A DNA stretch of 35,995 bases from an uncultured Nitrosomonadales bacterium. Lineage in GTDB: Bacteria; Pseudomonadota; Gammaproteobacteria; Burkholderiales; Gallionellaceae. Position numbers and translations under genes: made by a program. The notes beneath the pieces were generated by a model. That model was not told the origin of the DNA. It made no database searches and saw nothing but the letters and a program-made list of their open reading frames with translations. The DNA is taken from contig CAIRBC010000357.1 of assembly GCA_903876685.1 (NCBI GenBank), forward strand, positions 1-35,995, given 5' to 3'. This document shows, one piece after another, positions 1 to 23,945 of the stretch (within the stretch, counting starts at the first letter, position 1; every line of letters begins with the position of its first letter).

Positions 1-101
1 CAGACGAGTTTGACTTTCCAACTCAACCAACCTAAGAATCCTGCCATGATGACAAAACTCGCCGGTGCAAGCAACTTATTTCACTTGCTAACACAAAGTT
101 A

Positions 102-136
102 AAAGGCGACAAGACCAATTGGGTCTTGTCGCCTTT
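102..136 (-). terminator. Rho-independent terminator of the giant repeat gene (possibly bidirectional)
   Basis: Perfect 15-bp inverted repeat aaaggcgacaagacc (102-116) / ggtcttgtcgccttt (122-136), 5-nt loop, T/A-rich flanks, starting 28 nt past the stop codon at 165. Confidence 0.85.
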
Positions 137-164: not shown

Positions 165-3100
165 CTAGCTACTGGATCCCAAAATCACGTTAAGCGATGG
201 ATTGTGCTGCGGTATCAACGACTGCGGCTTATTGGAGATCGCAGCAATCGGTGTAGCCGACAACCCGGTTACCTGGGTCGTGGTCAATGCCACGACTGCA
301 GGCGTTCCAACAGCATTACCATTCGTGTCAAATTGCTTCAAGGCAGCGACCATTCCGCCTACATTAACCGCCAAGCCTATCGGCGTAGCTGCCCCTGGTG
401 CAGTAGCAGGACTACTCAATAGCGAACCTCCAGAACTAGCCGACAATATCGCCTGCGATTGATTGAAAGAAGCAATCGCTTGAGATAATCCACCTACCTG
501 CGCTTGTAATCCTTGAGTTGCAGGAGTCACAGACACTGCAGGAGTCGCTACCGCAGCATTAGCATTAGCATTAGCATTAGCATTAGCAGCATTTTTGTCA
601 GTAACAAACCAGATATCCGACATTGCATGTGTCTTGCCATCGCTGGTTTCGAAACTGGAGACCAGTCCTTCAATATTTCCGTTATTGGCATTGGATGCTG
701 CCTTGGCAGAAAGATCAAGCTTGGTGATTCCCAGCGTATCCAGCGTGCGCAACTCACCCGCTTGAGTGATACCATCAGAATTACCATCTACCCAAACCTT
801 CAGGTCGGCAAATCCAGCGTCTGCACTGCTAATGGCACCATCTCCATTAGTATCCATGGAAGACAGAGCTGCAAACCCATTGGCAGCCTTTTGCCCATCC
901 GGCAGTACAAACGAACTACCAAACAACTCGCTACCATCGTTGATAACACCATCCTGGTTCCGGTCAATCACCAGCAAACCATCACCTCCAGAAACCCAAC
1001 CGGTCCCCACAGTATTGCCGGTGGCGAACAGATCGAATTTGGTTCCCGCGGTTATGCTTTGCGTGTTTATGCCATTGCCATTCAAATCAAGAACCAGAGG
1101 CGTAGCTAACAGATTTAATTTCGAGAACTGCTCAACGCTGAAGCCGACTTGCAGATTGGCAGCTATTAACGCTTCTACCTGATTGGTGGTCAGTGCGGAA
1201 ACCTGATCGGTGGTCAGACCCTGATTAATTTGCACCGTCGTCAGAGAGACTATTTGCGCAGTACTCAATACTGCAATATCACGGGTCGTGAATGCAGCAA
1301 GCTGAGTTGTAGTCAGACCCAGTTGAATCTGCGCAGTAGTCAATGCCGCCGCCTGATTAGTGCTCAAGGCGACAACCTGGTCGGTAGTTAAACCCTGATT
1401 AATCTGCCATGTGGTGAGTGCACGAATCTGACTCGTCGACAGCGCGCCAATTTGATCGGTGGTCAGACCCAGATTAATCTGTGTTGTGGTCAAGGCTGCA
1501 ATCTGGCTGGTTCTGAAAGCAGCCAGGTCGCGTGTTTCCAGCGAAGCAACCTGGGTTGTAGTCAGTCCCTGTTGTACCTGAGCCGTGGTCAGTGCTGCCG
1601 CCTGTGCGGTGGTCAGCGCAATCACCTGATCGGTAGTAAATCCCAGATTAATCTGCGTAGTGCCTAACGCAATCACTTGAGCTGTTGTCAACGCGGCCAG
1701 ATCATTGGTTACCAAAGCGGCAATCTGTGCTGTCGTCAATCCCTGCTGTATCTGCGCGGTGGTCAATGCCACAGCCTGATCTGTATTCAGGGCGACAATC
1801 TGATCCGTCGTAAGCCCTAGCATTACCTGTGTGGTAGTTAGCGCACGTACCTGATCCGTAGTCATGGCAACAATATGGGCGGTGCTAAGCCCCTGATTAA
1901 CCTGCGCCGTGGTCAAAGCGGCTATCTGACTGGTTTTCATGGCAGCCAAATCGCGTGTTACCAGCGCGGCAACCTGGGTCGTAGTCAGACCTTGTTGTAC
2001 CTGAGCCGTAGTCAGAGCGCGAACCTGATCCGTAGTCATCACGACAACTTGGTCGGTAGTCAGTCCCAATTCAATCTGGTTTGTGGTCAGTGCAACTATT
2101 TGCGCCGTATTCAAGGCAACAACATCACGGGTAACCAGAGCATTGATCTGCGCGGTAGTCAGTCCAAGTTGTATCTGCGCCGTGGTCAAGGCTGCCGCCT
2201 GATCAGTGCTCAACGCAACAATCTGATCAGTGGTCAGACCCAGTTGCACCTGTGTCGTGGTCAATGCACGTATCTGATTCGTCGTTAACGCAGCAACCTG
2301 TGCTGTGGTCAGACCCTGATTAATCTGAGCAGTAGTCAGCACCGCAATCCGATCAACCTTGAAGGCGACCAGATCGCGAGTTTCCAGTGCGGCAACCTGC
2401 GCAGTATTCAGACCCAGTTGCACCTGCGCCGTAGTCAACACTGCTGCCTGACTGGTGGTCAGCGCAACGATCTGATCGGTGGTAAGACCCTGATTAATCT
2501 GAGCTGTAGTCAACACTGTCACCTGCGTTGTATTCAAGACAGCCAGATCAGCTGTTTCAAGTACGGCAAGTTGGGTGGTAGTCAGCCCCAGTTGTAATTG
2601 CGCCGTGGTTAAGGCATACACCTGATCAGTGGTCAGTGCAACAACCTGATCAGTCGTCAAGCCGAGCTGAACTTGCGCCGTAGTGAGTGCACGAATCTGG
2701 CTCGAGTTCAATGCCTGCAGATCACGGGTACTGAGTGCGGCAAGCTGAGCCGTGCCAAGGCTCTGTAACTGAGCCGTGGTTAATGCAGCCGTCTGATCCG
2801 TGCTCAACGCAACGATCTGGTCAGTGGTCAGACCCTGTTGCACCTGAGCCGTGGTCAATGCACGCATCTGATTCGTACTCAGCACCGCAACCTGAGCTGT
2901 GGTTAGACCCAGATTAATCTGCGCCGTAGTCAGCACGGCAATCTGGCTGGTCTTGAAGGCGGCCAGATCACGTGTTGTCAGTGCAGCAACCTGAGTTGTA
3001 GTCAACCCCAACTGTACCTGTGCTGTGGTCAGCGCATTAGCTTGTGCGGTAGTCAAGGAGACAATCTGATCAGTAGTCAGTCCCAGATTGATCTGTGCGG

Positions 3101-6100
3101 TAGTCAACGCAGCCACCTGACTGGTGCTCAGTTCGACCAAATCGCTGGTTAACAGAACCGCAATGTTGGCTGTGGTCAGTGCCTGCACCTGCGTCGTGCT
3201 GAGCGCTGCGGCCTGATCAGTGGTCAATGCTACTATTTGATCTGTAGTAAGACCCTGCTGCACCTGAGCCGTAGTCAACGCACGAACCTGGTTCGTACTC
3301 AACGCAGCAACCTGTGCCGTAGTCAGACCCAGGTTAATCTGCGCCGTGGTCAATGCCGCAACCTGATTGGTTCTGAAGGCCGCCAGATCTCGTGTTTCCA
3401 GAGCCGCAACCTGAGTCGTTGTAAGACCCTGCTGTACCTGCGCTGTGGTCAGCGCGTTAGCCTGCGCAGTGGTCAAGGCAATTATCTGATCGGTGGTCAA
3501 ACCTTGGTTAATCTGCGCCGTAGTCAATACAGACAGCTGAGCAGTACTCCAGGCAGCCAAATCTCTGGTTAAAAGCACGGCTAGCTGAGCCGTCGTCAGA
3601 CCTAATTGCACCTGTGCTGTAGTCAGCGCCGCAGCCTGATCCGTCGTCAAGGCAACAACCTGATCCGTGGTCAGACCCTGCTGAACCTGCGCAGTAGTAA
3701 GTGCACGAACCTGGTTCGAGGTCAAGGCCACTATCTGGGCGGTACTCAGACCCAAATTAATTTGTGCCGTGGTCAAGGCCGCAATCTGGCTGGTCTTGAA
3801 GGCCGCAAGATCGCGTGTTTCAAGTGCTGCCACCTGAATGGTGGTCAACCCCTGCTGCACTTGCGCCGTGGTCAGCGCGTTCGCCTGCGCCGTGGTCAAG
3901 GCGACGATCTGATCGGTAGTCAATCCCTGATTAACCTGAGCCGTAGTCAACACAACCAGTTGATTAGTGCCTAGAGCCGCTATGTCGCGAGTTTGTAACA
4001 CGGCAAGCTGCGCCGTAGTCAGACCTAGTTGCACCTGTGCCGTAGTCAGCGCCACTGTCTGATCCGTACTCAGAACGGCAACCTGATCGGTGGTCAGACC
4101 CTGCTGCACCTGTGCTGTGGTCAGCGCACGAACCTGATCCGTGGTCATGGCACGGATATGGTCAGTGGTCAAACCAAAGTTGATCTGCGCCGTAGTCAAG
4201 GCGGAAATCTGACTGGCCCCGATGGCTGCAAGATCGCGTGTTTCGAGTGCTGCCACCTGCGTCGTGTTCAATCCCAGCGAAATTTGCGCCGTAGTCAGTG
4301 CCCTAGCCTGATCGGTTGTGAAAGCAACGATATGGTCAGTCGTCAGACCTAGATTAATCTGTGCTGTCGTCAGAGCAACGACTTGCGCCGTACTCATTGC
4401 AGCCAGTTCACGTGTTCCAAGTGCGGCTAGTTGTAAACTGTTCAGACCCTGCTGAATCTGAGCCGTACCTAACGCAAATGTCTGAGCCGTACTCAGTGCC
4501 GCAATCTGCTCAGTCGTCAAGCCGAGATTAACCTGTGTCGTGCTCAAGCTTGCAACCTGTGCCGTACTCATGACTGCCAGATCACCTGTCTCGATTGCTG
4601 AAACCTGTGCAGAGGTCAGAGCACGCACCTGAAGCGTCGTCAGCGAAACCACCTGATCAGAAGTCAAGGCAACAATATGGTCTGTGGTCAATCCTTGGTT
4701 AATCTGTGTTGTGGTCAGAGCACGAATCTGATTGGTGTTCAATGCAACAACCTGAGCAGTAGTCAAGGCGAGATTAATCTGCGCAGTCGTAAGCACAGCA
4801 ATCTGACTGGTCTTGAATGCTGCCAAATCACGTGTTTCAAGTGCTGCTACCTGCGTCGTTGTCAGACCGAGCTGCACCTGTACGGTAGTCAGCGCATTTG
4901 CCTGAGACGTAGTCAGTGCGACAATCTGGTCGGTAGTCAACCCAAGGTTAACCTGCATGGTGGTCAGTGCAGATACCTGGCCGGTACTCATGACTGCAAA
5001 ATCGCCAGTCTCTAGCGCGGCTACCTGATTGGTCGTCAAACCTTGTAGTTGCAACGTAGTCAATGCATACACTTGATCAGAACTCAAGGCAACGATCTGA
5101 TCTGTAGTCAGACCTTGTTGAACCTGCGCAGTGGTCAGTGCGCGTACCTGATTGGTTCCCAACGCAACAACCTGATCGGTAGTCATGCCCAAATTAATCT
5201 GCGCCGTGGTCAGCGCTGTAATCTGGTTAGTCTTAAGTGCCGCCAAATCGCGGGTCTCCAAAGCGGCAATCTGTGTCGTACTCAACGCCATCACCTGTGC
5301 TGTGGTCAACACGTTCGCCTGAGTCGTGGTCAGAGCAATGATCTGGTCAGTGGTTAACCCCTGGTTAATCTGCGCCGTGGTCAACGCGACGATTTGAGCC
5401 GTCGTCAGCGCTGCCAAATCGCGTGTTACCAGTGCAGCAACCTGAGCTGTAGTCAACCCTTGCTGAACCTGTGCTGCCGTCAAGGAAGCCGCCTGAGCCG
5501 TCGTCAGTGCAGCGACCTGGTCGGTGGTCAGCCCCTGATTGATCTGCGCCGTGGTCAGTGCGCGAATCTGATCCGTGCCAAGCGCTACAATATGTTCAGT
5601 GCTAAGACCCAGGTTAATCTGCGCCGTAGTCAGCACTGCAATCTGGCTGGTCTTGAACGTGGCCAGATCACGTGTCTCCAGTGCTGAAACCTGAGTCGTA
5701 GTCAACCCCTGCTGTACTTGCGCAGTAGTCAAAGCGTTAGCCTGCGCTGTCGTCAACGCAACTATCTGATCTGTAGTCAACGCCAGATTAATCTGTGTAG
5801 TAGTTAACGCAGACACCTGAGCTGTGCTCATAGCAGCCAGATCACTGGTTTGCAAGGCTTCCAGCTGAGATGTAGTCAGACCCTGCTGTACCTGCGCAGT
5901 AGTCAGTGCAGCTGCCTGATCACTGGTCAGTACGAAAATCTGGTCAGTGGTCAGACCCAGATTAACCTGCGTCGTCGTCAAGGCGCGGATCTGCGTCGTG
6001 TTCAACGCAGCTATATGGTCTGTAGTCAGACCCTGGTTAATCTGCGCCGTAGTCAACGCAGCAATCTGGTTGGTCTTGAACGATGCCAGATCACGCGTTT

Positions 6101-9100
6101 CCATTGCGTTAACCTGTGCGGTTGTCAAACCCAACTGAATCTGCGCCGTAGTCAGCGCGCTGGCCTGTGCTGTGGTTATTGCAACAATCTGATCCGTGGT
6201 CAGTCCGCGATTAACCTGAGCCGTTGTCAACACAATCACTTGCGCGGTCGTCAGCGCTGCCACATCGGCGGTTACCATCGCGGCCAATTGGTCAGTGGTA
6301 AGACCCAGTTGCACTTGAGCCGTGGTCAGCGCGCTTGCCTGTGCCGTACTCAACGCAACGATCTGTTCGGTGGTAAGTCCCAGCTGCACCTGCGCAGTGG
6401 TGAGAGCACGGATCTGATCAGTACTCAGCGCTGCAATATGGTCAGTCCTGAGCCCAAGGTTTATTTGTGCCGTAGATAGAGCAGCAATCTGGCTGACCTT
6501 GAAGGCGGCCAAATCGCGCGTTTCGAGCGCTGCTACCTGAGTCGTGGTCAAACCCTGCCTGATTTGTGCGGTAGTCAGCGCATTCGCCTGCGCGGTAGTC
6601 AGCGAGACAATCTGATCGGTGGTCATACCCAGATTAATCTGCGCCGTAGTCAGTGCGGCGATCTGCATGGTGCTCAGCGCAGCCAGATCAGCCGTAACCA
6701 AGGCCGCAATCTGAGAAGATGTAAGCACTTGCAACTGAGCGGTGCTCAACGCGGCAGCCTGATCTGTAGTCAATGCAACGATCTGATCGGTGGTGAGTCC
6801 AAGATTAACCTGCGCCGTGGTCAATGCGACCATTTGTGATGTTGTCAGCCCAGCCAGATTTCTTGTTTCCAATGCGGTAATTTGAGAGGAAGTCAAACCC
6901 AGTTGGACTTGTGTCACCGTCAGCGCAGCAACTTGATCCGTGGTCAGCGCAACAATCTGACCGGTGGTAAAACCCAACTGTAATTGTGCAGTGGTGAATG
7001 CTCGCACCTGATTAGTATTCAGTGCGCCAATCTGGTCAGTGGTGAGACCCTGGTTGATTTGAGCCGTAGTCAGCACGGCAATTTGACTGGTCTTGAAAGC
7101 AGCCAGATCGCGTGTTTCCAGCGCCGCAACCTGGGTGGTAGTCAATCCCTGCTGCACTTGTGCCGTGGTCAGTGCATTTGCCTGTGCCGTAGTAAGCGCA
7201 ACGATCTGGTCAGTGGTGAGGCCAAGATTAACCTGCGCGGTGGTCAATGCGACCACTTGTGCAGTTGTCAGCGCAGCCACATCTCGTGTTTCCAGTGCGG
7301 AAATCTGCGAGGAAGTCAAACCCAGCTGTACCTGCGTCACCGTCAGCGCAGCAACTTGATCCGTGGTCAGCGCAACAATCTGGTCGGTGGTAAAACCCAA
7401 CTGTATCTGCAAGGTAGTGAAGCCACGAATCTGATTCGAAGTCAAGACACCGACCTGATCTGTGGTCAGCCCCTGCCTTATCTGTGTCGTGGTTAACATC
7501 GCAATCTGGTTGGTCTTGAGAGCGACCAGATCACGCGTGGTAATTGCGGCGATCTGGGTGGTAGTCAAGCCTTGTTGAACTTGTGCCGTGGTTAATGAAC
7601 TCGCCTGTGCCGTAGTCAAGGCGACAATCTGATCCGTAGTCAGACCCTGATTAACTTGAGCAGTGGTCAATGCGACGATTTGAGCAGTAGTCATTACGGC
7701 CAGATCACCTGTTTCCAGCGCCGCAACCTGCGCAGTGCCCAGTCCCAATTGAATCTGCGTAAGGGTCAATGCAGCAACTTGATCACTGCCTAAGGCCACG
7801 ATCTGATCGGTGCTCAACGCATACACCTGAGTGCTCGTCAATGCACGAATTTGTGACGTAGACAGCGCAGCAACCTGGTCGGTCGTCAATCCCTGATTTA
7901 TCTGTGCTGTCGTCAAAACGGCAATCTGACTGGTCTTGAAGGCGACCAGATCACGAGTTTCAAGAGCAGCAACCTGGGTTGTGGTTAACCCCAATTGTAT
8001 TTGAGCGGTGGTCAACACATTTGCCTGCGTCGTGGTCAGCGCAACGATCTGGTCGGTGGTCAATCCCTGGTTTACCTGCGCCGTAGTCAGTGAAACCAAC
8101 TGTTGCGTAGTCAGAGCGACAAAATCACGTGTTTCAAGCGACTCAACCTGAGCCGTAGTCAATCCTTGCTGAATCTGCGCTGTAGTCAGGGCGGCTACCT
8201 GGTTACTGCTCAGTGCAACGATCTGATCAGTGGTCAACCCAAGTTGAACCTGTGCTGTGGTCAACGCACGCACCTGATCGGTAGTCAACGCAACGATTTG
8301 ATCCGTCGTCAATCCCAGTTTTACCTGTGCTGTGGTCAGCGCCGCAACCTGAGTTACCTTGAACGCCGCGAGATCACGCGTTTCCAGAGCTGCGACCTGA
8401 ATCGTGGTCAAGCCCTGCTGTACCTGCGCCGTAGTGAAGGTACTCGCCTGCGTCGTGGTCAACGCAATAATCTGGTCGGTAGTCATTCCGAGATTAATCT
8501 GCGCGGTAGTCAGTGCAGCAATCTGTGCCGTACTCAATGCAGCCAAATCCTGCGTTACTAATACAGCAACCTGAGCGGAATTCAGTGCCTGCACCTGCGC
8601 TGGGCTCATTGCATAGACCTGATCTGAACTCAGGACAATCACTTGATCCGTGGTCAAGCCCACTTGAACTTGGGAAGTAGTCAACGCACGAATTTGTGCG
8701 GTGCCCAACGCGGCCAGATCACGCGTCAACAGCGCGGCAACGTGTGTCGTCGTCATGGCCTGTATCTGCATCGTGGTCAGTGCTACCGCCTGATCCGTAC
8801 TCAACACTGCAACCTGGTCAGTGGTGAAACCCTGTTGCACCTGAGCCGTGGTAAAGGCACGAATCTGAGACGTATTCAACACAGACATCTGATCAGTGGT
8901 CATACCCAGGTTAATCTGAGCCGTGGTTAGCACTGCAATCTGACTGGTCTTGAAAGCCGCCAGATCGCGGGTTTCCATCGCAGCTACCTGAGTCGTAGTT
9001 AATCCCAGTTGCACCTGAGCTGTAGTCAGCGCATTCGCGTGCGCCGTAGTCAATGCGACGATCTGATCTGTAGTCAATCCCAACCTGACCTGACCTGTCG

Positions 9101-12100
9101 TCAGCGCAGACACTTGTGTGGTACTCATGGCGGCAAAATCAAGTGTTTCAAGCGCCGCAATCTGCGCCGTACCCAGGCTTTGAACCTGAGTCGAGGTTAA
9201 CGCAACCACCTGATCCGAACTCAGAGCAACAATCTGGTCTGTAGTTAGTCCCTGCTGCACCTGCGCTGTAGTCAACGCGCGGAGTTGAGTCGAGCTCAAA
9301 GCGCCAATCTGATCAGTAGTGAGTCCCAGATTAATTTGCGCGGTAGTCAACACGTTTATCTGGCTGGTCTTTAACGCAGCCAGATCACGCGTTTCAAGTG
9401 CGGAAACCTGACTTGAAGTCAATCCCTGCTGTATCTGAGCGGTAGTCAGCGCACTCGCCTGTGTCGTTGTCAACGCAACAATCTGATCAGTGGTAAGTCC
9501 CAGATTAATCTGTGTAGTCGTCAACGCCATTATCTGAGACGTCGTTAATGCGGCCAAATCGCGAGTTACCAGCACAGCAATCTGTGCCGAAGTTAACCCC
9601 TGCTGTATCTGTGCCGTAGTCAGCGCGACCGCCTGATCTGAACTCAAGGCGACAATCTGATCAGTCGTCAGACCGAGTTGCACCTGTGAGGTGGTGAGCG
9701 CACGGATCTGTGCAGTTCCCATCCCGGCAATCTGATCAGTCGTCAGACCCTGATTGATTTGCGCCGTAGTCAGCGCGGCTATCTGCGAAGTCTTGAAGGC
9801 AGCCAGATCACGTGTTTCAAGCGCGGCAACCTGTGTAGTCGTCAACCCCTGCTGCACTTGAGCTGTCGTCAACGCACTGACCTGATTCGTAGTCAGCGCA
9901 ATGATCTGGTCTGTGGTCAACCCCTGATTAACCTGCGCCGTGGTCAGCGAACTGATTTGAGATGTCGTCAAGGCGGACAGATTCAGCGTTTCAAGCGCAG
10001 CAACCTGTGTCGTTGAAAGTCCTTGCTGAATCTGCGACGTAGTCAGCGCGACAAGCTGATCCGAGCTAAGCGCAACGATTTGATCGGTGGTCAGCGCATT
10101 CACCTGAGCCGTCGTCAGTGCACGAATTTCCGAGGTGGTCAACGCGGCAATCTGCTCGGTGCTCAACCCCTGATTAATCTGCGCCGTAGACAAGGCAACA
10201 ATCTGATTAGTCCGCATTGCGGCCAAATCACGGGTTGACAGTGCTGCAATTTGAGACGTGGTTAAACCCAGTTGTATCTGTGCCGTGGTTAGAACACTAG
10301 CCTGAAGCGTGGTTAGTGCGGCTACCTGATCCGTAGTCAGCCCCTGATTGATTTGCGCAGTGGTCAGCACGATCACTTGTCCGGTATTCATCGCAGCAAG
10401 ATCACGTGTTTCGATCGCAGCAATCTGTGCGGTAGTCAAGCCCAACTGCACTTGCGCCGTAGTCAGCGAGTTCACCTGAGCCGTGGTCAGCGCGACAATC
10501 TGGTCGGTGGTCAGACCCAACTGAACCTGCGCCGTAGTCAGTGCACGCACCTGATCTGTCGTCATCGCAACGATTTGACTGGTGCTAAGACCCTGGTTGA
10601 TCTGCGCCGTAGTCAGCACAGCAATCTGGTTGACCTTGAAGGCAGCCAGATCACGAGTTTCCAGTGCGGCAACCTGAGTCGTGGTAAGACCCTGCTGCAC
10701 CTGGGCTGTAGTCAGCGCTGCAGCCTGTGTGGTAGTCAAGGCAATCACCTGATCGGTGGTGAAGCCCAGATTAACTTGCGCCGTAGTAAATGCTGCCACC
10801 TGAGCCGTGCTCATGACGGACAGATCACCCGTTACCAGCACTGCGACCTGTGCCGTGGTCATACCCTGTATCTGCGCAGTAGTCAGCGCGGCTGCCTGAT
10901 CCGAAGTTAAAGCAACGATCTGGTCAGAGGTCAAACCCAGTTGCACTTGCGCGGTAGACAATGCACGTATCTGCGCTGTACCCAGTGCAGCCAGATCGCG
11001 AGTGTTTAACGCGGCGAGCTGTACAGAGTTCAAGCTCTGCACCTGTGCCGTGGTCAGCGCTGCTGCCTGATCCGTACTCAACGCAACAATCTGGTCGGTC
11101 GTCAGACCGTTCAATACCTGATTAGTGGTTAATGCACGGATTTGAGAGGTATTCAAAGCGGCGATCTGGGCAGTAGTCATGCCTAGATTAATTTGCTCAG
11201 TGGTCAATACGGCAATCTGACTGGTCTTGAAAGCGGCCAGATCTCGCGTTTCCATTGCAGCAATCTGTGTTGTGGTCAAACCCAGTTGAACTTGAGCAGT
11301 GGTCAGCGCATTTGCCTGCGCCGTAGTCAGTGCGACAACCTGATCAGTAGTAAAGCCCTGATTAATCTGTGCTGTGGTCAGCGCAGCAATTTGCGATGTA
11401 CTCATCGAGGCCAAATCAAGCGTTTCCAGCGCCTGAACTTGCGCAGTGGTCATAACCTGCAATTGCGCGTTAGTCAGTGCAATCGACTGATCAGAGCTAA
11501 GTGCCACGATTTGATCGGTAGTCATACCAAGCCGCACTTGCGCCGTGGTCAAGGCACGAACCTGGTTGGTGCTCATTGCCACCACCTGATCGGTGGTCAA
11601 CCCTCTGTTGATCTGCGCGGTAGTCAGGGCTGCAATCTGACTGGTCTTGAAAGCGGCAAAATCACGCGTTTCCATCGCGGCCAACTGATCTGTAGTCAGA
11701 CCGAGCTGCACCTGAGCCGTGGTCAGCGCTGCAGACTGATCGGTAGTCAACGCAACGATCTGAGCGGTCGTCAAAACCTGATTAATCTGAGCTGTGGTCA
11801 ACGCGTTCACTTGCGCGGTAGTCATCGCAGCTAAATTGCGTGTTTCAAGCGCAACAACCTGGGTGGTGGTCAAAGCCTGCACCTGTGCGGTAGTCAAGGC
11901 CACTGCCTGATTGGTACTTAATGCAACAATGTGATCAGTGGTCAAACCCTGCTGCACTTGGGCTGTGGTAAGGACTCGCACTTGCGAGGTATTCAGTGCT
12001 GCGACCTGATCGGTGGTTAAACCCAGATTAATCTGTGCAGTGGTCAACGCAATCAACTGGCTGGTTTTGAAGGCAGCAAAATCGAGGGTACTCATCGCAG

Positions 12101-13748
12101 CAAGTTGTGCCGACGTCAGTCCCAACTGTACCTGTGCCGTCGTCAACGCTGCAGTCTGAGCAGTAGTCAAAGCCACGATCTGATCGGTGGTCAATCCCTG
12201 ACTGAGCTGAGCAGTGGTCAACGAAACCACCTGGGCAGTATTCAATACCGCAAAATCACTGGTTTCAAGCGCGGCAAGCTGAGCTGTCCCCAGACCCTGT
12301 TGAAGCTGTGCCGTGGTAAGCGCGGCGACTTGCGCAGTGGTAAGTGCGACGATCTGATTGGTGCTCAACGCATTAATTTGAGCGGTGGTAAGGGCGCGGA
12401 TTTGATCGGTCGTCAGTGCGCCAATCTGATCAGTGCTCAGACTCTGGTTAATCTGAGCCGTAGTCAACGCGGCAATCTGGCTGGTCTTGAAGGCAGCCAG
12501 ATCACGGGTTTCCAGTGCTGCCACCTGAGTCGTCGTCAACCCCTGCTGTACCTGTGCCGTAGTCAGCGCTGAAGCTTGAGCGGTAGTCAGTGCTACAATT
12601 TGATCTGTAGTAAGTCCCAGATTAATCTGCGTCGTGGTGAAAGCAACCACTTGTGCGCTAGTCAGCGCAGCCAGGTCACGGGTAATCAGCGCGTTAACCT
12701 GTGACGAGGTCAAACTCACCACCTGCGCCGTTGAAAGTGTGGCTGCCTGTGCCGTACTCAACGCGACGATCTGATCTGTGGTCAGACCCAGTTGCACCTG
12801 AGCCGTGGTGAGCGCGCGAGTCTGTGCAGTGCTCAATGCGGCAATATGATCGGTAGTCAAACCCAAGTTAATCTGCGCCGTAGTCAGCGCGGCAATCTGA
12901 CTGGTCTTGAACGCGGCCAAATCACGCGTCTCCAGTGCAGCTACCTGCGTGGTAGTCAAACCTTGCTGCACCTGCGCTGTCGTCAGCGCGGCAGACTGAT
13001 CCGTAGTCAATGCCACCACCTGATCGGTGGTCATGCCTAGATTAATTTGCGCCGTAGTCAACGCAGTGATCTGAGCCGTGCCCATCGCGGACAGATCCAG
13101 CGTTTCCAAAGCAGTGACCTGCGCTGAGGTCAGCGCTTGCACCTGGGCGGTGGTCAATGCCGCAATCTGTGTAGAACTCAAACTTACGATCTGGTCGGTA
13201 GTCAGTCCCTGAGCAACCTGCGCCGTAGTCAGCGCCATCATCTGGTTTGAGCTCATCGCAGCCAAATCACGCGTTTCCAGCGCTGCCACCTGGGTGGTAG
13301 TCAACCCCTGCTGTATCTGGGCAGTCGTCATCGCCCGCACCTGATCGGTGGTGAGTGCCACGATCTGGTCGGTAGTCAGACCCTGTTGTACCTGTATGGT
13401 CGTCAGCGCCCTGATCTGACCCGTGGTCAGCGCAACAAACTGATCGGTAGTCAAACCCTGATTTATTTGGGCAGTCGTCAACACCATAATCTGGCTAGAC
13501 CTTAATGCAACCAGGTCAGCTGTTTCTAATGCAGCTATCTGGGTCGTCGTAAATCCCTGCCTGAGTTGCGCGGTCGTCAGACCTTGTTGCACCTGAGCCG
13601 TAGTGAGCGCCACTATCTGGTCTGTTGTGAACCCCTCACTAATTTGTTGCGTTGTTAACGTAGCAATAGAAGAGGTAGAAAAACCTGCAATCTGCGCAGT
13701 CGACATTGATGCAATTTGCGCAGTTGACAATCCGGTAAAGATGGACAT
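165..13748 (-). CDS. Giant (4527 aa) LTTxQ-repeat protein with C-terminal RTX-type Ca-binding-like domain; probable secreted/surface protein
   Basis: Single ORF, ATG at 13748 preceded by AAAGGGAG with 7-nt spacing; ~500 tandem 8/9-aa units; C-terminus contains PLVLDLNGNGI...GWVSGGDGLLVIDRNQDGVINDGSELFG...DTNGDG...DGNSDG. Confidence 0.95.
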   Translation of the reverse strand: MSIFTGLSTAQIASMSTAQIAGFSTSSIATLTTQQISEGFTTDQIVALTTAQVQQGLTTAQLRQGFTTTQIAALETADLVALRSSQIMVLTTAQINQGLTTDQFVALTTGQIRALTTIQVQQGLTTDQIVALTTDQVRAMTTAQIQQGLTTTQVAALETRDLAAMSSNQMMALTTAQVAQGLTTDQIVSLSSTQIAALTTAQVQALTSAQVTALETLDLSAMGTAQITALTTAQINLGMTTDQVVALTTDQSAALTTAQVQQGLTTTQVAALETRDLAAFKTSQIAALTTAQINLGLTTDHIAALSTAQTRALTTAQVQLGLTTDQIVALSTAQAATLSTAQVVSLTSSQVNALITRDLAALTSAQVVAFTTTQINLGLTTDQIVALTTAQASALTTAQVQQGLTTTQVAALETRDLAAFKTSQIAALTTAQINQSLSTDQIGALTTDQIRALTTAQINALSTNQIVALTTAQVAALTTAQLQQGLGTAQLAALETSDFAVLNTAQVVSLTTAQLSQGLTTDQIVALTTAQTAALTTAQVQLGLTSAQLAAMSTLDFAAFKTSQLIALTTAQINLGLTTDQVAALNTSQVRVLTTAQVQQGLTTDHIVALSTNQAVALTTAQVQALTTTQVVALETRNLAAMTTAQVNALTTAQINQVLTTAQIVALTTDQSAALTTAQVQLGLTTDQLAAMETRDFAAFKTSQIAALTTAQINRGLTTDQVVAMSTNQVRALTTAQVRLGMTTDQIVALSSDQSIALTNAQLQVMTTAQVQALETLDLASMSTSQIAALTTAQINQGFTTDQVVALTTAQANALTTAQVQLGLTTTQIAAMETRDLAAFKTSQIAVLTTEQINLGMTTAQIAALNTSQIRALTTNQVLNGLTTDQIVALSTDQAAALTTAQVQSLNSVQLAALNTRDLAALGTAQIRALSTAQVQLGLTSDQIVALTSDQAAALTTAQIQGMTTAQVAVLVTGDLSVMSTAQVAAFTTAQVNLGFTTDQVIALTTTQAAALTTAQVQQGLTTTQVAALETRDLAAFKVNQIAVLTTAQINQGLSTSQIVAMTTDQVRALTTAQVQLGLTTDQIVALTTAQVNSLTTAQVQLGLTTAQIAAIETRDLAAMNTGQVIVLTTAQINQGLTTDQVAALTTLQASVLTTAQIQLGLTTSQIAALSTRDLAAMRTNQIVALSTAQINQGLSTEQIAALTTSEIRALTTAQVNALTTDQIVALSSDQLVALTTSQIQQGLSTTQVAALETLNLSALTTSQISSLTTAQVNQGLTTDQIIALTTNQVSALTTAQVQQGLTTTQVAALETRDLAAFKTSQIAALTTAQINQGLTTDQIAGMGTAQIRALTTSQVQLGLTTDQIVALSSDQAVALTTAQIQQGLTSAQIAVLVTRDLAALTTSQIMALTTTQINLGLTTDQIVALTTTQASALTTAQIQQGLTSSQVSALETRDLAALKTSQINVLTTAQINLGLTTDQIGALSSTQLRALTTAQVQQGLTTDQIVALSSDQVVALTSTQVQSLGTAQIAALETLDFAAMSTTQVSALTTGQVRLGLTTDQIVALTTAHANALTTAQVQLGLTTTQVAAMETRDLAAFKTSQIAVLTTAQINLGMTTDQMSVLNTSQIRAFTTAQVQQGFTTDQVAVLSTDQAVALTTMQIQAMTTTHVAALLTRDLAALGTAQIRALTTSQVQVGLTTDQVIVLSSDQVYAMSPAQVQALNSAQVAVLVTQDLAALSTAQIAALTTAQINLGMTTDQIIALTTTQASTFTTAQVQQGLTTIQVAALETRDLAAFKVTQVAALTTAQVKLGLTTDQIVALTTDQVRALTTAQVQLGLTTDQIVALSSNQVAALTTAQIQQGLTTAQVESLETRDFVALTTQQLVSLTTAQVNQGLTTDQIVALTTTQANVLTTAQIQLGLTTTQVAALETRDLVAFKTSQIAVLTTAQINQGLTTDQVAALSTSQIRALTSTQVYALSTDQIVALGSDQVAALTLTQIQLGLGTAQVAALETGDLAVMTTAQIVALTTAQVNQGLTTDQIVALTTAQASSLTTAQVQQGLTTTQIAAITTRDLVALKTNQIAMLTTTQIRQGLTTDQVGVLTSNQIRGFTTLQIQLGFTTDQIVALTTDQVAALTVTQVQLGLTSSQISALETRDVAALTTAQVVALTTAQVNLGLTTDQIVALTTAQANALTTAQVQQGLTTTQVAALETRDLAAFKTSQIAVLTTAQINQGLTTDQIGALNTNQVRAFTTAQLQLGFTTGQIVALTTDQVAALTVTQVQLGLTSSQITALETRNLAGLTTSQMVALTTAQVNLGLTTDQIVALTTDQAAALSTAQLQVLTSSQIAALVTADLAALSTMQIAALTTAQINLGMTTDQIVSLTTAQANALTTAQIRQGLTTTQVAALETRDLAAFKVSQIAALSTAQINLGLRTDHIAALSTDQIRALTTAQVQLGLTTEQIVALSTAQASALTTAQVQLGLTTDQLAAMVTADVAALTTAQVIVLTTAQVNRGLTTDQIVAITTAQASALTTAQIQLGLTTAQVNAMETRDLASFKTNQIAALTTAQINQGLTTDHIAALNTTQIRALTTTQVNLGLTTDQIFVLTSDQAAALTTAQVQQGLTTSQLEALQTSDLAAMSTAQVSALTTTQINLALTTDQIVALTTAQANALTTAQVQQGLTTTQVSALETRDLATFKTSQIAVLTTAQINLGLSTEHIVALGTDQIRALTTAQINQGLTTDQVAALTTAQAASLTAAQVQQGLTTAQVAALVTRDLAALTTAQIVALTTAQINQGLTTDQIIALTTTQANVLTTAQVMALSTTQIAALETRDLAALKTNQITALTTAQINLGMTTDQVVALGTNQVRALTTAQVQQGLTTDQIVALSSDQVYALTTLQLQGLTTNQVAALETGDFAVMSTGQVSALTTMQVNLGLTTDQIVALTTSQANALTTVQVQLGLTTTQVAALETRDLAAFKTSQIAVLTTAQINLALTTAQVVALNTNQIRALTTTQINQGLTTDHIVALTSDQVVSLTTLQVRALTSAQVSAIETGDLAVMSTAQVASLSTTQVNLGLTTEQIAALSTAQTFALGTAQIQQGLNSLQLAALGTRELAAMSTAQVVALTTAQINLGLTTDHIVAFTTDQARALTTAQISLGLNTTQVAALETRDLAAIGASQISALTTAQINFGLTTDHIRAMTTDQVRALTTAQVQQGLTTDQVAVLSTDQTVALTTAQVQLGLTTAQLAVLQTRDIAALGTNQLVVLTTAQVNQGLTTDQIVALTTAQANALTTAQVQQGLTTIQVAALETRDLAAFKTSQIAALTTAQINLGLSTAQIVALTSNQVRALTTAQVQQGLTTDQVVALTTDQAAALTTAQVQLGLTTAQLAVLLTRDLAAWSTAQLSVLTTAQINQGLTTDQIIALTTAQANALTTAQVQQGLTTTQVAALETRDLAAFRTNQVAALTTAQINLGLTTAQVAALSTNQVRALTTAQVQQGLTTDQIVALTTDQAAALSTTQVQALTTANIAVLLTSDLVELSTSQVAALTTAQINLGLTTDQIVSLTTAQANALTTAQVQLGLTTTQVAALTTRDLAAFKTSQIAVLTTAQINLGLTTAQVAVLSTNQMRALTTAQVQQGLTTDQIVALSTDQTAALTTAQLQSLGTAQLAALSTRDLQALNSSQIRALTTAQVQLGLTTDQVVALTTDQVYALTTAQLQLGLTTTQLAVLETADLAVLNTTQVTVLTTAQINQGLTTDQIVALTTSQAAVLTTAQVQLGLNTAQVAALETRDLVAFKVDRIAVLTTAQINQGLTTAQVAALTTNQIRALTTTQVQLGLTTDQIVALSTDQAAALTTAQIQLGLTTAQINALVTRDVVALNTAQIVALTTNQIELGLTTDQVVVMTTDQVRALTTAQVQQGLTTTQVAALVTRDLAAMKTSQIAALTTAQVNQGLSTAHIVAMTTDQVRALTTTQVMLGLTTDQIVALNTDQAVALTTAQIQQGLTTAQIAALVTNDLAALTTAQVIALGTTQINLGFTTDQVIALTTAQAAALTTAQVQQGLTTTQVASLETRDLAAFRTSQIAALTTTQINLGLTTDQIGALSTSQIRALTTWQINQGLTTDQVVALSTNQAAALTTAQIQLGLTTTQLAAFTTRDIAVLSTAQIVSLTTVQINQGLTTDQVSALTTNQVEALIAANLQVGFSVEQFSKLNLLATPLVLDLNGNGINTQSITAGTKFDLFATGNTVGTGWVSGGDGLLVIDRNQDGVINDGSELFGSSFVLPDGQKAANGFAALSSMDTNGDGAISSADAGFADLKVWVDGNSDGITQAGELRTLDTLGITKLDLSAKAASNANNGNIEGLVSSFETSDGKTHAMSDIWFVTDKNAANANANANANAAVATPAVSVTPATQGLQAQVGGLSQAIASFNQSQAILSASSGGSLLSSPATAPGAATPIGLAVNVGGMVAALKQFDTNGNAVGTPAVVALTTTQVTGLSATPIAAISNKPQSLIPQHNPSLNVILGSSS
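556..585. repeat. Hexanucleotide microsatellite (gcatta)x5 encoding Ala-Asn repeats in the C-terminal linker
   Basis: Five exact tandem gcatta copies; translated on minus strand as ...NANANANANA... Confidence 0.9.
600..1110 (-). other. C-terminal domain with four Asp/Asn-Gly Ca-binding-like loops
   Basis: DLNGNGIN, DRNQDGVIND, DTNGDGAISSAD and DGNSDGITQAGE motifs, with the LVLDLNGNG...DGLLVIDRN.DG.I..GSELFG signature typical of RTX/T1SS-type large proteins. Boundaries approximate. Confidence 0.7.
1140..13730 (-). repeat. Coding tandem repeat array: 24/27-nt units in a 420/423-nt higher-order repeat
   Basis: Anchor 'FKTSQ' (reverse complement ctggctggtcttgaa) recurs at 1511, 1934, 2357, 2951, 3371, 3794, 4217, 4811, 5231, 5651, 6074, 6497, 7091, 7514, 7934, 8357, 8948, 9368, 9791, 10211, 10634, 11225, 11645, 12065, 12485, 12905. 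Confidence 0.95.
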
Positions 13749-13859
13749 AATTTAACTCCCTTTAAAATCATTTAACTAGAAAACTAACGCGGGTAGTTTA
13801 GCCTAGAAAAAAATACTGGTTTAGGAAAACAATTAAAGACACTAAAGACTCTGTCCAGT

Positions 13860-13886
13860 TTATCGGCAACTTTCAGCAGAACTTTA
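13860..13886 (-). promoter_or_regulatory. Sigma-28 (FliA) class promoter for the giant repeat gene
   Basis: Minus strand reads TAAAGTTC-tgctgaaagtt(11)-GCCGATAA; 15/16 match to the established FliA consensus TAAAGTTT-N11-GCCGATAA; ends ~110 nt upstream of the ATG. Confidence 0.85.
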
Positions 13887-13984: not shown

Positions 13985-14701
13985 CTAGCCCTCACGCTTC
14001 AGATTGGCTGCCACCAGTATACCTGCTTCATAAAGCAGCCATAGCGGAATCGCCAGCATGAATTGCGAAACCACGTCAGGCGGGGTGAATATAGCGCCGA
14101 TGACAAAGGCACCGACGATCGCATAAGGGCGAATTTCTCTCAACTTTTCAACAGTGACCACCCCCATGCGCACCAGCAGCACGACCGCAACCGGCACTTG
14201 AAAGGTCACACCAAAGGCCAGAAACATACTAATGACAAAGCCGAGGTATTTATCGATGTCCGTCATCACCGCGACACCCAGCGGCGCTGAGGCGGTAATA
14301 AAACCGAACACCACCGGGAATACCACAAAATAAGCAAAAGCCATGCCGCAATAAAACAGCAGCGTGCTGGCAATGACCAACGGCGCCACCAAACGTTTTT
14401 CATGCGCATACAACCCGGGTGCGACAAAACTCCAGACCTGATACAGAATATACGGCAGGGTAATCATCAGCGCGGTCATCAACGCTACTTTGAGCGGCAC
14501 GAAAAAAGGCGTAGCAACATCAGTGGCGATCATCTGCCCGCCTTTGGGCAACTTCGCCAGCAAGGGTTGAGCAAGCAATGCATAAAGGTCTGCAGCCCAA
14601 TGGAATAAACCCAGAAACACCAGTAGCAACACCACTGCAATGTTCAGCAAACGCTTGCGTAACTCGATCAGATGCGCGATAAAATTTTCGCTGTCGCCCA
14701 T
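13985..14701 (-). CDS. tatC: Sec-independent protein translocase TatC
   Basis: MGDSENFIAHLIELRKRLL... multi-TM TatC sequence; start trimmed to ATG at 14701 from the 321-aa track ORF, adjacent to the tatB stop. Confidence 0.95.
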   Translation of the reverse strand: MGDSENFIAHLIELRKRLLNIAVVLLLVFLGLFHWAADLYALLAQPLLAKLPKGGQMIATDVATPFFVPLKVALMTALMITLPYILYQVWSFVAPGLYAHEKRLVAPLVIASTLLFYCGMAFAYFVVFPVVFGFITASAPLGVAVMTDIDKYLGFVISMFLAFGVTFQVPVAVVLLVRMGVVTVEKLREIRPYAIVGAFVIGAIFTPPDVVSQFMLAIPLWLLYEAGILVAANLKREG

Positions 14702-14703
14702 GG

Positions 14704-15054
14704 TCAGGGTTTCACATCCGGTTTGGCTGCAGGGTGAACGGTATTCACATCCTGTACATCGGTCACAGCCTTGCCCTGCTGCACCATTAGAATTTTCCGT
14801 TCCAGCGCACTCCTGGCATCTTGCGTGGCTTGCTCGACAGCGCTGGCCTCCTTGAGCAGGCTGCTTTTCAGTTGATTTACCTCTTCGATGGCCATCTCTT
14901 TTGCAATGTCGGTTTTGATACTGTGCACATAACGCTGCACCCGCCCCCACAACAACCCTGCTGTACGCGCAACCTTAGGCAAACGCTCGGGACCGATGAC
15001 CACCAGTGCCACCACCATGATCACCACCAACTCGGAGAAGGCAAAGTCAAACAT
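14704..15054 (-). CDS. tatB: Twin-arginine translocase subunit TatB
   Basis: [32 protein letters not shown]-terminus. Confidence 0.95.
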
Positions 15055-20417: not shown

Positions 20418-21542
20418 ATGCCTAATAAACTTTCCAATCCACCAACCAGCCCGTCCCCGGACAAGCTGCAAGGGTTTATCGCCAATTTACCGGGCATGGC
20501 CTGCCAGATTGAATTGCAAAAAGATGGCAGCTTCACCTTCCCTTATGTCAGCGAAGGCTGTATGACCCTGTTTGGACTCCCTTCGCAACAACTACAAAAC
20601 GACGCTAGCTGTTTTGTCAAGCTCATTCATCCCGAAGACCTTGCCTCTATGCTGGATACCTTGAAAAAATCTGCCCAGACCGAGTGTTTCTGGAACTGGG
20701 AAGGTCGTATCACCTTGCATGACGGCGAATGCAAATGGATCAGCCTGGGAGCCACGCCACAAATCACTGAAAGTGGCTTGCCACGCTGGGAAGGCATCAT
20801 CCTCAACACCACGCAAAGCAAGCTGGGCGAACTGGAAGTCAAACGCGTACAACAACAATTGCTGGAACTTTCCTCACATATACAGGACGCCAAAGAACAG
20901 GAGCGCCTGCGCATTGCACGAGAAGTGCATGACGAAATTGGCAGCCTGCTCACCGCGATCAAAATGGATTTATCCTGGATGACGCAGCGTCTGCCCAAGG
21001 ACAACCCCACGCTCACCAACAAGGCAAAAACCATAGAAGAACTGGTGAACCGGGCAATCACCTCTGCCAGTAACCTGGCTCACCGGCTACGCCCGGGCTT
21101 TCTCGATTGTTTCGGCATCATCGCCGCGATCGAAATTGAGGCTCAGGAATTTTCCAAACGCTGCGGCATCAGCTGTACGGTCATCAAATCTCAGGAGAGC
21201 ATCGATTTGCCAGAAACCCATTCGATCACACTATTCCGTGTGTGTCAGGAAACTTTGAATAACATCCTGAAACATGCCCATGCCAAACATGTGCAAATCG
21301 AAATCGTCAAGGGTACAGATCATCTGGAGCTGATTATCTCCGATGACGGAATCGGCTTTTCCGAGGCTGCGCGCAATAAGCCCAGGTCTTTTGGCCTGAG
21401 AGGGGTGCAAGAACGGGTCGCCCACCTGGGTGGCACCGTCAAACTGGCCAGCACCCTGGGGCGTGGCACGCAAATTGCCATTTTTGTCCCGCTCAAGGAA
21501 GAAACTCCACAACAGGCGCTGTTCGGCGACACCTCCATATGA
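20418..21542 (+). CDS. Soluble PAS-domain sensor histidine kinase, NarL-type (HisKA_3/HATPase_c)
   Basis: EQERLRIAREVHDEIGSLLTAIKMDL H-box; ISDDGIGF and GLRGVQERVAHLGG ATPase motifs; no obvious TM segment. Confidence 0.9.
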   Translation: MPNKLSNPPTSPSPDKLQGFIANLPGMACQIELQKDGSFTFPYVSEGCMTLFGLPSQQLQNDASCFVKLIHPEDLASMLDTLKKSAQTECFWNWEGRITLHDGECKWISLGATPQITESGLPRWEGIILNTTQSKLGELEVKRVQQQLLELSSHIQDAKEQERLRIAREVHDEIGSLLTAIKMDLSWMTQRLPKDNPTLTNKAKTIEELVNRAITSASNLAHRLRPGFLDCFGIIAAIEIEAQEFSKRCGISCTVIKSQESIDLPETHSITLFRVCQETLNNILKHAHAKHVQIEIVKGTDHLELIISDDGIGFSEAARNKPRSFGLRGVQERVAHLGGTVKLASTLGRGTQIAIFVPLKEETPQQALFGDTSI

Positions 21543-22180
21543 TAAATATTCTTGTCGTAGACGATCATGCACTGATCCGCAAGGGTCTGAAAATGCTGCT
21601 CGAAGAAGGTCCTGATTTCCATATCGCGGGCGAGGCGGAAACCGGGATGCAAGCCATCACCATGGCCAGAAACCAGCACTTTGATCTGATCCTGCTCGAC
21701 ATTTCGTTATCAGACAAGCACGGCATAGATGTGTTAAAGCAGCTAAAATCCGAACAACCCGAGGTCAAGATTATTGTGCTCTCCATGTATCCCGAAGAAC
21801 AGTATGGGGTACGCGCACTCAAAGCCGGTGCGATGGGCTACATCAACAAACAGAGCGCGCCGGAAAAACTGGTCGGTGCGATACAGCAGGTCATTAGCGG
21901 CAAGAAATATATCAGCGCGCTACTGGCAGAACAATTACTGAGCAATCTGATCGGCGAATCCCAGGAACTGATGCATCAGAGCCTGTCAAACCGCGAATAT
22001 CAGACGCTCTGCCTGATGGCCTCCGGAAAATCCCTGACCGAAATTGCCGAAATCATGACACTTAGCTCCAAGACGGTAAGCGTCTACCGCGCCCGAATGC
22101 TGGAAAAAATGGGTTTCAAAAATAATGCCGAGGCGGTTCACTACGCCATTGCACACAATCTGGTCGATATGAATAAATGA
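21539..22180 (+). CDS. NarL/LuxR-family response regulator
   Basis: MINILVVDDHALIRKGL; LDISLSDKHG; C-terminal LuxR HTH (SNREYQTLCLMASGKSLTEIAEIMTLSSKTVSVYRARMLEKM); 4-nt overlap with kinase. Confidence 0.93.
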   Translation: MINILVVDDHALIRKGLKMLLEEGPDFHIAGEAETGMQAITMARNQHFDLILLDISLSDKHGIDVLKQLKSEQPEVKIIVLSMYPEEQYGVRALKAGAMGYINKQSAPEKLVGAIQQVISGKKYISALLAEQLLSNLIGESQELMHQSLSNREYQTLCLMASGKSLTEIAEIMTLSSKTVSVYRARMLEKMGFKNNAEAVHYAIAHNLVDMNK

Positions 22181-22196
22181 ATAGCAGGTTAATAGC

Positions 22197-23945
22197 ATGA
22201 ATACCAACAGCCCCTCCGATGTTGCCCGCGAAACGCTCAAAACGCTGGCTGCGCGCAAGCTGATACCGACCCCGGCCAACTACACAAAAATTTATACTGA
22301 AATCGGCGGCGCTAGTACCGAAGAAGGAAACAGTGCCGCAAAAGTATTGCGCGACATGGCAGAACGTCTGACAAAGTCGCATAAATCCGCTTTGATAGGG
22401 GTGGCGTTGAAAAGACTGATTCAGGCCGAAGATTGGGATCTGTGCTTCAAGGAATTTGAAAAATTAATCCCGAAACAGGGCGAAGAACCCACACTAAAGT
22501 GGTCTGAATTAATACGCGATTTGTTACGCCAACTGGAAACCCCGCATAAGGGTTTGACTATTACCCGAAAAAAGGAAGGCATTGAAACTGTACTCGGCAA
22601 GTTTGCGGCAAACACCGACACCTTGTATGAAAAACTGAATGCGCTGATCCGTTCCTGGTCCGAAGCTATAGTCTCTGTCAACGAAATTGATCCCGCCGAA
22701 CTGCCGGTTAGCGCCAGCACCCCGGCACATTTTATCTCTGGTGAAGCAGCAAGCCTACCAGCCAGACTCGCCGATTTACTGGCGCAAACCCTGGAAAGCA
22801 TACTCTGCATGCAACCGGAACTGACTCAGGAAATTCAGGCTCACGCCATTCAGGTGCGCAAGATCCAGAATTATGATCAACTGACTGCCTTCGCCAGCCA
22901 ACTACGCCACTTCCTGATCAGGGTTGAATTACGCGCAGGTGACAACGCAAAAATTCATGAAGGCCTGGTGCGACTGTTACGCCTGCTGGTGGAAAATATC
23001 GGTGAAATCATCGAAGACGAAGACTGGCTACATGGACAGGTTGCGATCTTGCGCGAAATAATCGCCAGACCCATCGATCGCCATGCCATCGCCGATGCCG
23101 AGCGCGCACTTCGAGACGCCATCATCAAACAAGGTTTCCTCAAACAAAGCATCACCGAGGCTAAAACTACGCTTAAAACCCTGATGGCCAGTTTCATCGA
23201 CCGCTTGGGCGAAATCACCGAAAGCACCGGCGAATATCATCAAAAAATTGAACAATACAGCGAAAAAATCAGCAAATCCAACAATCTGACTGAACTCTCC
23301 CATTTGCTGGAAGACATCATGCAGGATACGCGCATCATCCAGGCAAGCGCCTTGCGTTCTCATGAAGAACTGGTGGGCACCCGCAAGCAGGTGCACGAAG
23401 CCGAATCAAAAATCAGAAAACTGGAACAGGAACTTGCCGAGGTCAGCGAACTGGTTCATCAGGATCAACTCACAGGCGCACTCAACCGGCGTGGTCTGGA
23501 CGAAGCCTTCGAGCGGGAAGCGACTCGCGCCGACCGCAACCAGACAGGACTGTGCGTGGTGCTGCTGGACATCGACAACTTCAAGCGAATCAACGACAAC
23601 ATGGGTCATCAGATCGGCGATCAGGCGCTGATTCATTTGAGCCATGTGATCAAGGAAGAGCTACGCCCCAGCGACTCGGTTGCACGCTATGGTGGAGAGG
23701 AATTCATCTTGCTCCTGCCAGACATTGACCTTGCAGAAGCCACCGCCACCGTCGAACGCTTGCAACGAGAACTAACCAAAAAATATTTCCTGCACGAAAA
23801 CGACCGCGTGCTGATCACCTTCAGTGCAGGGGTGGCGTTGCGCGCAGCACTTGAAACCCAGGAAGATACGGTCGGTCGCGCCGACCGTGCGATGTACAAG
23901 GCAAAACTGGCGGGTAAAAACCGGGTAGTAGTGTCTGATAACTAA
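22197..23945 (+). CDS. GGDEF-domain diguanylate cyclase with long helical N-terminal region
   Basis: RYGGEEF active site, upstream RPSD (RxxD I-site) at 5-residue spacing; LTGALNRRGLDEAFEREATRADR. Confidence 0.93.
   Translation: MNTNSPSDVARETLKTLAARKLIPTPANYTKIYTEIGGASTEEGNSAAKVLRDMAERLTKSHKSALIGVALKRLIQAEDWDLCFKEFEKLIPKQGEEPTLKWSELIRDLLRQLETPHKGLTITRKKEGIETVLGKFAANTDTLYEKLNALIRSWSEAIVSVNEIDPAELPVSASTPAHFISGEAASLPARLADLLAQTLESILCMQPELTQEIQAHAIQVRKIQNYDQLTAFASQLRHFLIRVELRAGDNAKIHEGLVRLLRLLVENIGEIIEDEDWLHGQVAILREIIARPIDRHAIADAERALRDAIIKQGFLKQSITEAKTTLKTLMASFIDRLGEITESTGEYHQKIEQYSEKISKSNNLTELSHLLEDIMQDTRIIQASALRSHEELVGTRKQVHEAESKIRKLEQELAEVSELVHQDQLTGALNRRGLDEAFEREATRADRNQTGLCVVLLDIDNFKRINDNMGHQIGDQALIHLSHVIKEELRPSDSVARYGGEEFILLLPDIDLAEATATVERLQRELTKKYFLHENDRVLITFSAGVALRAALETQEDTVGRADRAMYKAKLAGKNRVVVSDN

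Follow-up and report, generated by a model that had tools for sequence, protein, structure and literature searches.

That a giant secreted adhesin can be under flagellar control is already known from FrhA of Vibrio cholerae, a large secreted adhesin encoded by a class 4 flagellar gene that is down in fliA mutants (PMC6890996). Two other described systems can be compared with the locus presented here. FrpC carries a self-processing module (PDB 6sjw and 6sjx), and proteins of its type perform a clip-and-link chemistry (PMC7078468). FlmG of Caulobacter, a soluble O-glycosyltransferase, binds its substrate through an N-terminal domain and acts on flagellin (PMC7591256).

The window analysed in this work is a whole stretch of 35,995 nucleotides from an uncultured member of the Gallionellaceae, a family that, by its named records, includes iron-oxidising betaproteobacteria. 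It contains a giant ALTTAQ-repeat gene (165..13748, minus strand; 4527 aa including the stop codon), recognised as an ORF and by Pfam. The pattern of FrhA recurs here with a repeat that is unrelated and with a glycosyltransferase gene linked to it. A LapG site and an N-terminal retention module, both present in FrhA, were not found in the giant protein, and the FrhA repeats are unrelated in type to the ALTTAQ helical solenoid. With the FrpC module the giant protein shares a domain of about 170 residues with EF-hand-like loops; the scissile Asp-Pro of FrpC, however, is Thr-Pro in the giant protein and Thr-Pro or Ser-Pro in all its orthologues, and the giant lacks RTX nonapeptides. FlmG is a functional parallel, likened by function and not by homology, for the TPR/GT41 genes that stand beside fliC or beside the ALTTAQ gene. 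Literature searches on ALTTAQ, HeliScrew and Gallionella adhesins gave nothing relevant, and no functional paper was found on PF20080, the Pfam family of the repeat; PMC11784438, considered as a giant-adhesin comparison, concerns a trimeric autotransporter and was discarded as not relevant. Our overall reading, which we regard as probable, is that a working FliA promoter drives a type-I-exported solenoid whose role on the swimming cell would be that of an adhesin or surface fibre and which is possibly O-glycosylated.

The FliA-type box upstream of the giant gene

On the minus strand, positions 13886-13860 read TAAAGTTC TGCTGAAAGTT GCCGATAA, that is, a -35 element TAAAGTTC (13886-13879), a spacer of exactly 11 nt (13878-13868) and a -10 element GCCGATAA (13867-13860). 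As a FliA (sigma-28) promoter we took a -35 TAAAGTTT and a -10 GCCGATAA at 11-nt spacing, in sense orientation and 5' of a gene; the box has all of these features and matches the consensus at 15/16 positions. It is located in the gap between the tatC stop (13985) and the ATG of the giant gene (13748), at a distance of 111 nt from the latter, and the earlier note, which had described this match, its spacing and its orientation, is thereby confirmed on the sequence. A transcription start would be expected near 13851-13855 on the minus strand, and a Shine-Dalgarno-like GGGAG, read from the sequence (13756..13760, minus strand), is found 7 nt 5' of the ATG.

The same note had held that such a match is not expected by chance in 36 kb, and this claim stands. 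In a pattern scan the box is the only match in the window with three or fewer mismatches, 0.26 being expected. The flagellin promoters of other Gallionellaceae have the form TAAAGTTT-N11-[T/C/A]CCG[A/T]TAA and lie ~95-105 nt 5' of the ATG. A matrix trained on 23 flagellin promoters, exclusively from other Gallionellaceae, gives the box 19.4 bits, the top score of the window, with the runner-up at 11.6; none of 150 Markov-simulated windows attained 19.4 bits. Base shuffling of the 300-nt region upstream of the giant gene gave p = 0.0015 for the box.

Five Gallionellaceae genomes carry giant ALTTAQ genes that share a C-terminal domain: the own genome (assembly G000), G009 (contig JAUXOL010000007.1), G024 (JAQUAI010000003.1), G130 (SCUU01000017.1) and G053. 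All five are preceded by a sense-strand N11 box (1, 1, 1, 2 and 2 mismatches) that ends 100 to 195 nt 5' of the start codon. The mean pairwise identity among the five is 0.85 for each box, 0.25 for the spacer and 0.27-0.29 for the 40-nt flanks, and the conservation of the box with spacer and flanks at chance level is, by this comparison, a clean footprint. As the orthologues share a common ancestry, their boxes do not count as five separate occurrences. One of the boxed orthologues does not adjoin tatC. A sixth ALTTAQ gene, truncated by a contig end in G079, has TAAAGTTT-N12-GCCGATAA, with a spacer of 12 nt.

The genome-wide box scans were pattern searches. The own genome encodes FliA, FlgM, FlgK, FliD and flagellin, at scores over or near the family cut-offs, and its FliA gene adjoins FlhF- and Mot-like genes. 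Two sites with at most one mismatch were found in its 4.82 Mb, the window box and C593:6247, the latter standing 5' of a flagellin gene; flgK has a site with two mismatches. At three mismatches there are 56 matches versus 84 for a reversed control pattern, and thus only near-perfect sites are informative. In five relatives (about 13.6 Mb) a scan for TAAAGTNT-N12-CCGATA gave 11 perfect sites, and each of them could be assigned: 5 to flagellin, 3 to ALTTAQ giants, and 1 each to flgM, flgK and a NIT-domain sensor. Four of the flagellin sites are direct, and the fifth, at a contig end of G009, was assigned by inference across the contig break to the flagellin starting C9. All six ALTTAQ genomes of the family have flagellin, which is weak evidence since flagellin is present in 116/158 genomes anyway. 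The own-genome flagellar genes and the conserved boxes support the proposal of the earlier note that the giant protein would belong to the late flagellar regulon. The G000 assembly is fragmented (600 contigs) and large, same-genus genomes being listed at 1.5-3.5 Mb; gene gain or an unrecognised mixture is possible.

It could be argued that the motif is a chance match and that transcription of the giant gene starts at another promoter or comes through from tatC, which lies upstream in the same direction. A sigma-70 scan of the minus strand of the tatC-giant gap gave no site, so that other promoter types could be hidden there. This explanation would have to account, however, for two boxes kept before five orthologues with random spacers, one of them away from tatC, for the failure of every simulated window to reach the score, and for the 11 perfect sites in relatives, every one of which is assigned to a flagellar gene, a sensor gene or this giant. 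We consider it extremely improbable and reject it on the matrix, the simulations and the footprint. In our opinion the box at 13860..13886, judged by its sequence, matrix score and shuffling, is almost certainly a promoter of the FliA type.

Not every ALTTAQ gene can be FliA-driven. Three further ALTTAQ genes of the own genome, L087:3615-7889, L088:2995-7347 and L086:4257-4751 (contigs C294, C526 and C63), have no convincing N11 FliA box, and they may be expressed in another phase. In other Burkholderiales families, N11 boxes were clearly above shuffles for three ALTTAQ genes out of ten (G283, G428 and G251), the remaining seven having no convincing one. Since the own paralogues lack a good box, FliA control is not a property of the ALTTAQ repeat family at large.

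Some other genes of these genomes deserve mention. Small Ser/Thr/Asn-rich proteins are encoded at L006:847-1500 (minus strand, C92) and L012:1548-2276 (plus strand, C512) of G000, each right behind a 2-mismatch FliA box; they gave no Pfam or NCBIfam match, their similarity to each other is confined to the last 34 residues, and they may be additional FliA targets of a non-structural kind. At L094:5476-6225 (plus strand, G000 C568), between a chemoreceptor-like gene and oxidoreductase-like genes, lies the gene of a second FliA/WhiG-like sigma factor, which scores below the family cut-off. In G053 (C24), flhD, the flagellar master regulator (L321:973-1296, minus strand), has a FliA-like box 204 nt upstream, a possible feedback. 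A 368-residue protein of no known family (L334:1557-2660, plus strand, G079 C46) is encoded directly behind a FliA-like box.

Position at the edge of a flagellin cluster

In G009 and G024 the gene order is ALTTAQ giant, tatC, tatB-like gene, his genes (followed by fliW in G009), histidine kinase, LuxR regulator, GGDEF gene and flagellin, where genes without a Pfam match were named by inspection. Flagellin is followed by flaG-, fliD- and fliS-like genes, in G024 on the same contig and in G009 on another one. The window shares with these relatives tatC (13985..14950, minus strand; assigned by homology and synteny, its true start probably further in), the his genes and, at 20418..23945 on the plus strand, a trio of PAS histidine kinase, LuxR-type response regulator and GGDEF protein, also assigned by homology and synteny, and then has a P-type ATPase in the place of flagellin. 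The window kinase is 83% identical to that of G009 and the GGDEF protein 62%, and the regulator is 65% identical to that of G130. In G079 it is the ALTTAQ gene that comes after the GGDEF gene, at the position which flagellin has in relatives. Together with the shared synteny, this places the giant gene at the edge of the flagellin cluster. The earlier note remarked on the lack of flagellar genes in the window; taken literally this is correct, but it misleads, as the trio adjoins fliC in relatives.

Elsewhere in the window, a 1115-residue SNF2-type helicase (32202-35549, minus strand) is related to SCO1167-family, pilus-regulating and ZorD-like helicases and adjoins a 394-residue ORF of no known family, and a methyltransferase domain is fused to a TPR protein (28568-30988, plus strand).

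Protein architecture, probable export and possible glycosylation

The giant protein begins with a short-helix solenoid of ALTTAQ repeats (PF20080) that advances in steps of 8 or 9 residues over approximately residues 1-4210 (1119..13748, minus strand), as seen by Pfam and in a structure model. Pfam finds the repeat in 115 stretches, with 2462 bits against a gathering cut-off of 26.4. AlphaFold2 predicts a regular short-helix solenoid within the last 578 residues of the protein, with pLDDT mostly 85-96. The nearest natural solenoids of the PDB in a fold search, such as mesothelin, are weak matches, and a protein named HeliScrew4 matches the repeat by sequence. Residues 4217-4384 (597..1100, minus strand) match the FrpC self-processing module in sequence (E 2e-36) and in fold, and the EF-hand-like loops are retained. 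Ahead of the conserved Pro the window protein has Thr and the orthologues have Thr or Ser, and there is no Asp-Pro anywhere in the giant protein; therefore, FrpC-type clip-and-link self-processing is not expected. We would expect this domain, by its sequence, to act as a calcium-triggered folding cap. The C-terminal tail (168..596, minus strand), of low model confidence and with short motifs common to the orthologues, is a candidate export signal. A terminator-like perfect hairpin is located 3' of the gene (101..136, minus strand). Searches of the giant protein for RTX nonapeptides GGxGxDxxx, for the LapG-type di-alanine motif [TPA]AAG and for a signal-peptide-like stretch found none. The repeats start almost at residue 1 and no N-terminal retention module was found; LapA-like retention was discarded for lack of a motif.

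The export machinery is suggested by the relatives. In G009, G024, G053 and G130 the gene of the best HlyB-type ABC protein shares contig and strand with the giant gene and lies downstream of it, with a HlyD-like gene behind. Immediately downstream of the giant stands a gene of the TPR/GT41 (O-GlcNAc-transferase) type, assigned by Pfam in G009 and G130 and from translated-sequence similarity in G024 and G053. Further sugar genes, mostly named by inspection, are placed between the GT41 gene and the transporter. In G079 the last genes on the transporter contig encode a TPR protein and a fragment that matches the C-terminal tail of the giant, and the genes in between resemble, by eye, a nonulosonic-acid sugar pathway. 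In the own genome the giant gene is followed by the terminator-like hairpin, the contig end cuts its downstream side, and the best HlyB is found on C71 in an unrelated context; the GT41 genes of this genome adjoin flagellin. The HlyB/HlyD linkage in four relatives makes type I export likely for the giant family, and for the window protein we hold it to be probable. O-glycosylation is a possibility that we raise tentatively from the gene context. Neither the likely type I route nor the FrpC-like domain had been part of the earlier note.

A different exit could be imagined, in which the FliA-controlled giant is part of the flagellum or leaves through the flagellar gate as a filament-attached or sheath-like fibre, and not by type I secretion. 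FliA control, the linkage to the fliC cluster and the lack of a signal-peptide-like stretch would fit with this. However, the C-terminal domain comes from a type I-secreted family (PMC7078468), HlyB/HlyD genes are linked in four relatives, and repeats that begin almost at residue 1 leave no room for a disordered N-terminal export signal. We find the flagellar route quite improbable beside type I export.

G024 has on C13 another type I ABC transporter gene (L342:2895-5096, minus strand) with a 1-mismatch FliA box at 5188-5214, and the start of an ORF two to three genes past it (L342:2-733) resembles, by eye, a LapA-type retention module. Similar transporter genes in G000, G079 and G130 have no such FliA box 5' of them.

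A proposed second fibre for the swimming cell

FlgM leaves the cell through the finished hook and thereby frees FliA. A working FliA (sigma-28) promoter would place the 4527-residue ALTTAQ protein in the late flagellar regulon, and from FliA biology and the boxes the freed sigma factor would have flagellin, FlgK and the ALTTAQ giant transcribed together. A HlyB/HlyD-type type I system would export the giant unfolded, and outside the cell it would fold with calcium into a long thin helical solenoid, capped by the calcium-binding domain related to the FrpC module and spared FrpC-style self-cutting. The TPR/GT41 transferase would perhaps O-glycosylate some of its many Thr residues. The product would be displayed as a surface fibre or adhesin on swimming cells ready for attachment. 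The sequences themselves show the box and its conservation, the linkage to flagellar genes, the repeat family, the homology of the C-terminal domain and, in relatives, the linkage to the transporter. FliA dependence, export, glycosylation and adhesion are what we infer for the giant protein from sequence comparison and one structure prediction.

Adhesion is the role that we favour, with reservations. It is suggested by size, repeats, likely export and precedent, and these leave space for a FliA-controlled giant that is not an adhesin: it could, for instance, be released as a matrix protein or associate with the stalk, form a glide or sheath layer that depends on calcium, or act as a weapon upon contact. 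Pfam found no toxin or enzyme domain, however, and the precedent of FrhA speaks for adhesion, so that we regard the non-adhesin roles as rather unlikely. Motility-linked adhesin or surface fibre would be the best reading, the adhesin part being one that we infer.

New to us are the link between PF20080 and FliA, this protein family with its helical solenoid, the connection with iron oxidisers and the apparent lack of a retention module. The locus would give a first hold on how PF20080 giants are regulated, and a likely route for their export. It is conceivable, and we propose it with caution, that in Gallionellaceae and certain other betaproteobacteria the flagellated cell has a dedicated accessory in ALTTAQ giants that bear an FrpC-like cap: type-I-exported and glycosylated, they would be a second surface fibre that FliA switches on along with flagellin. 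This gives a concrete prediction of how iron-oxidising Gallionellaceae couple swimming to attachment: if true, the second fibre would couple swimming to landing on mineral surfaces.
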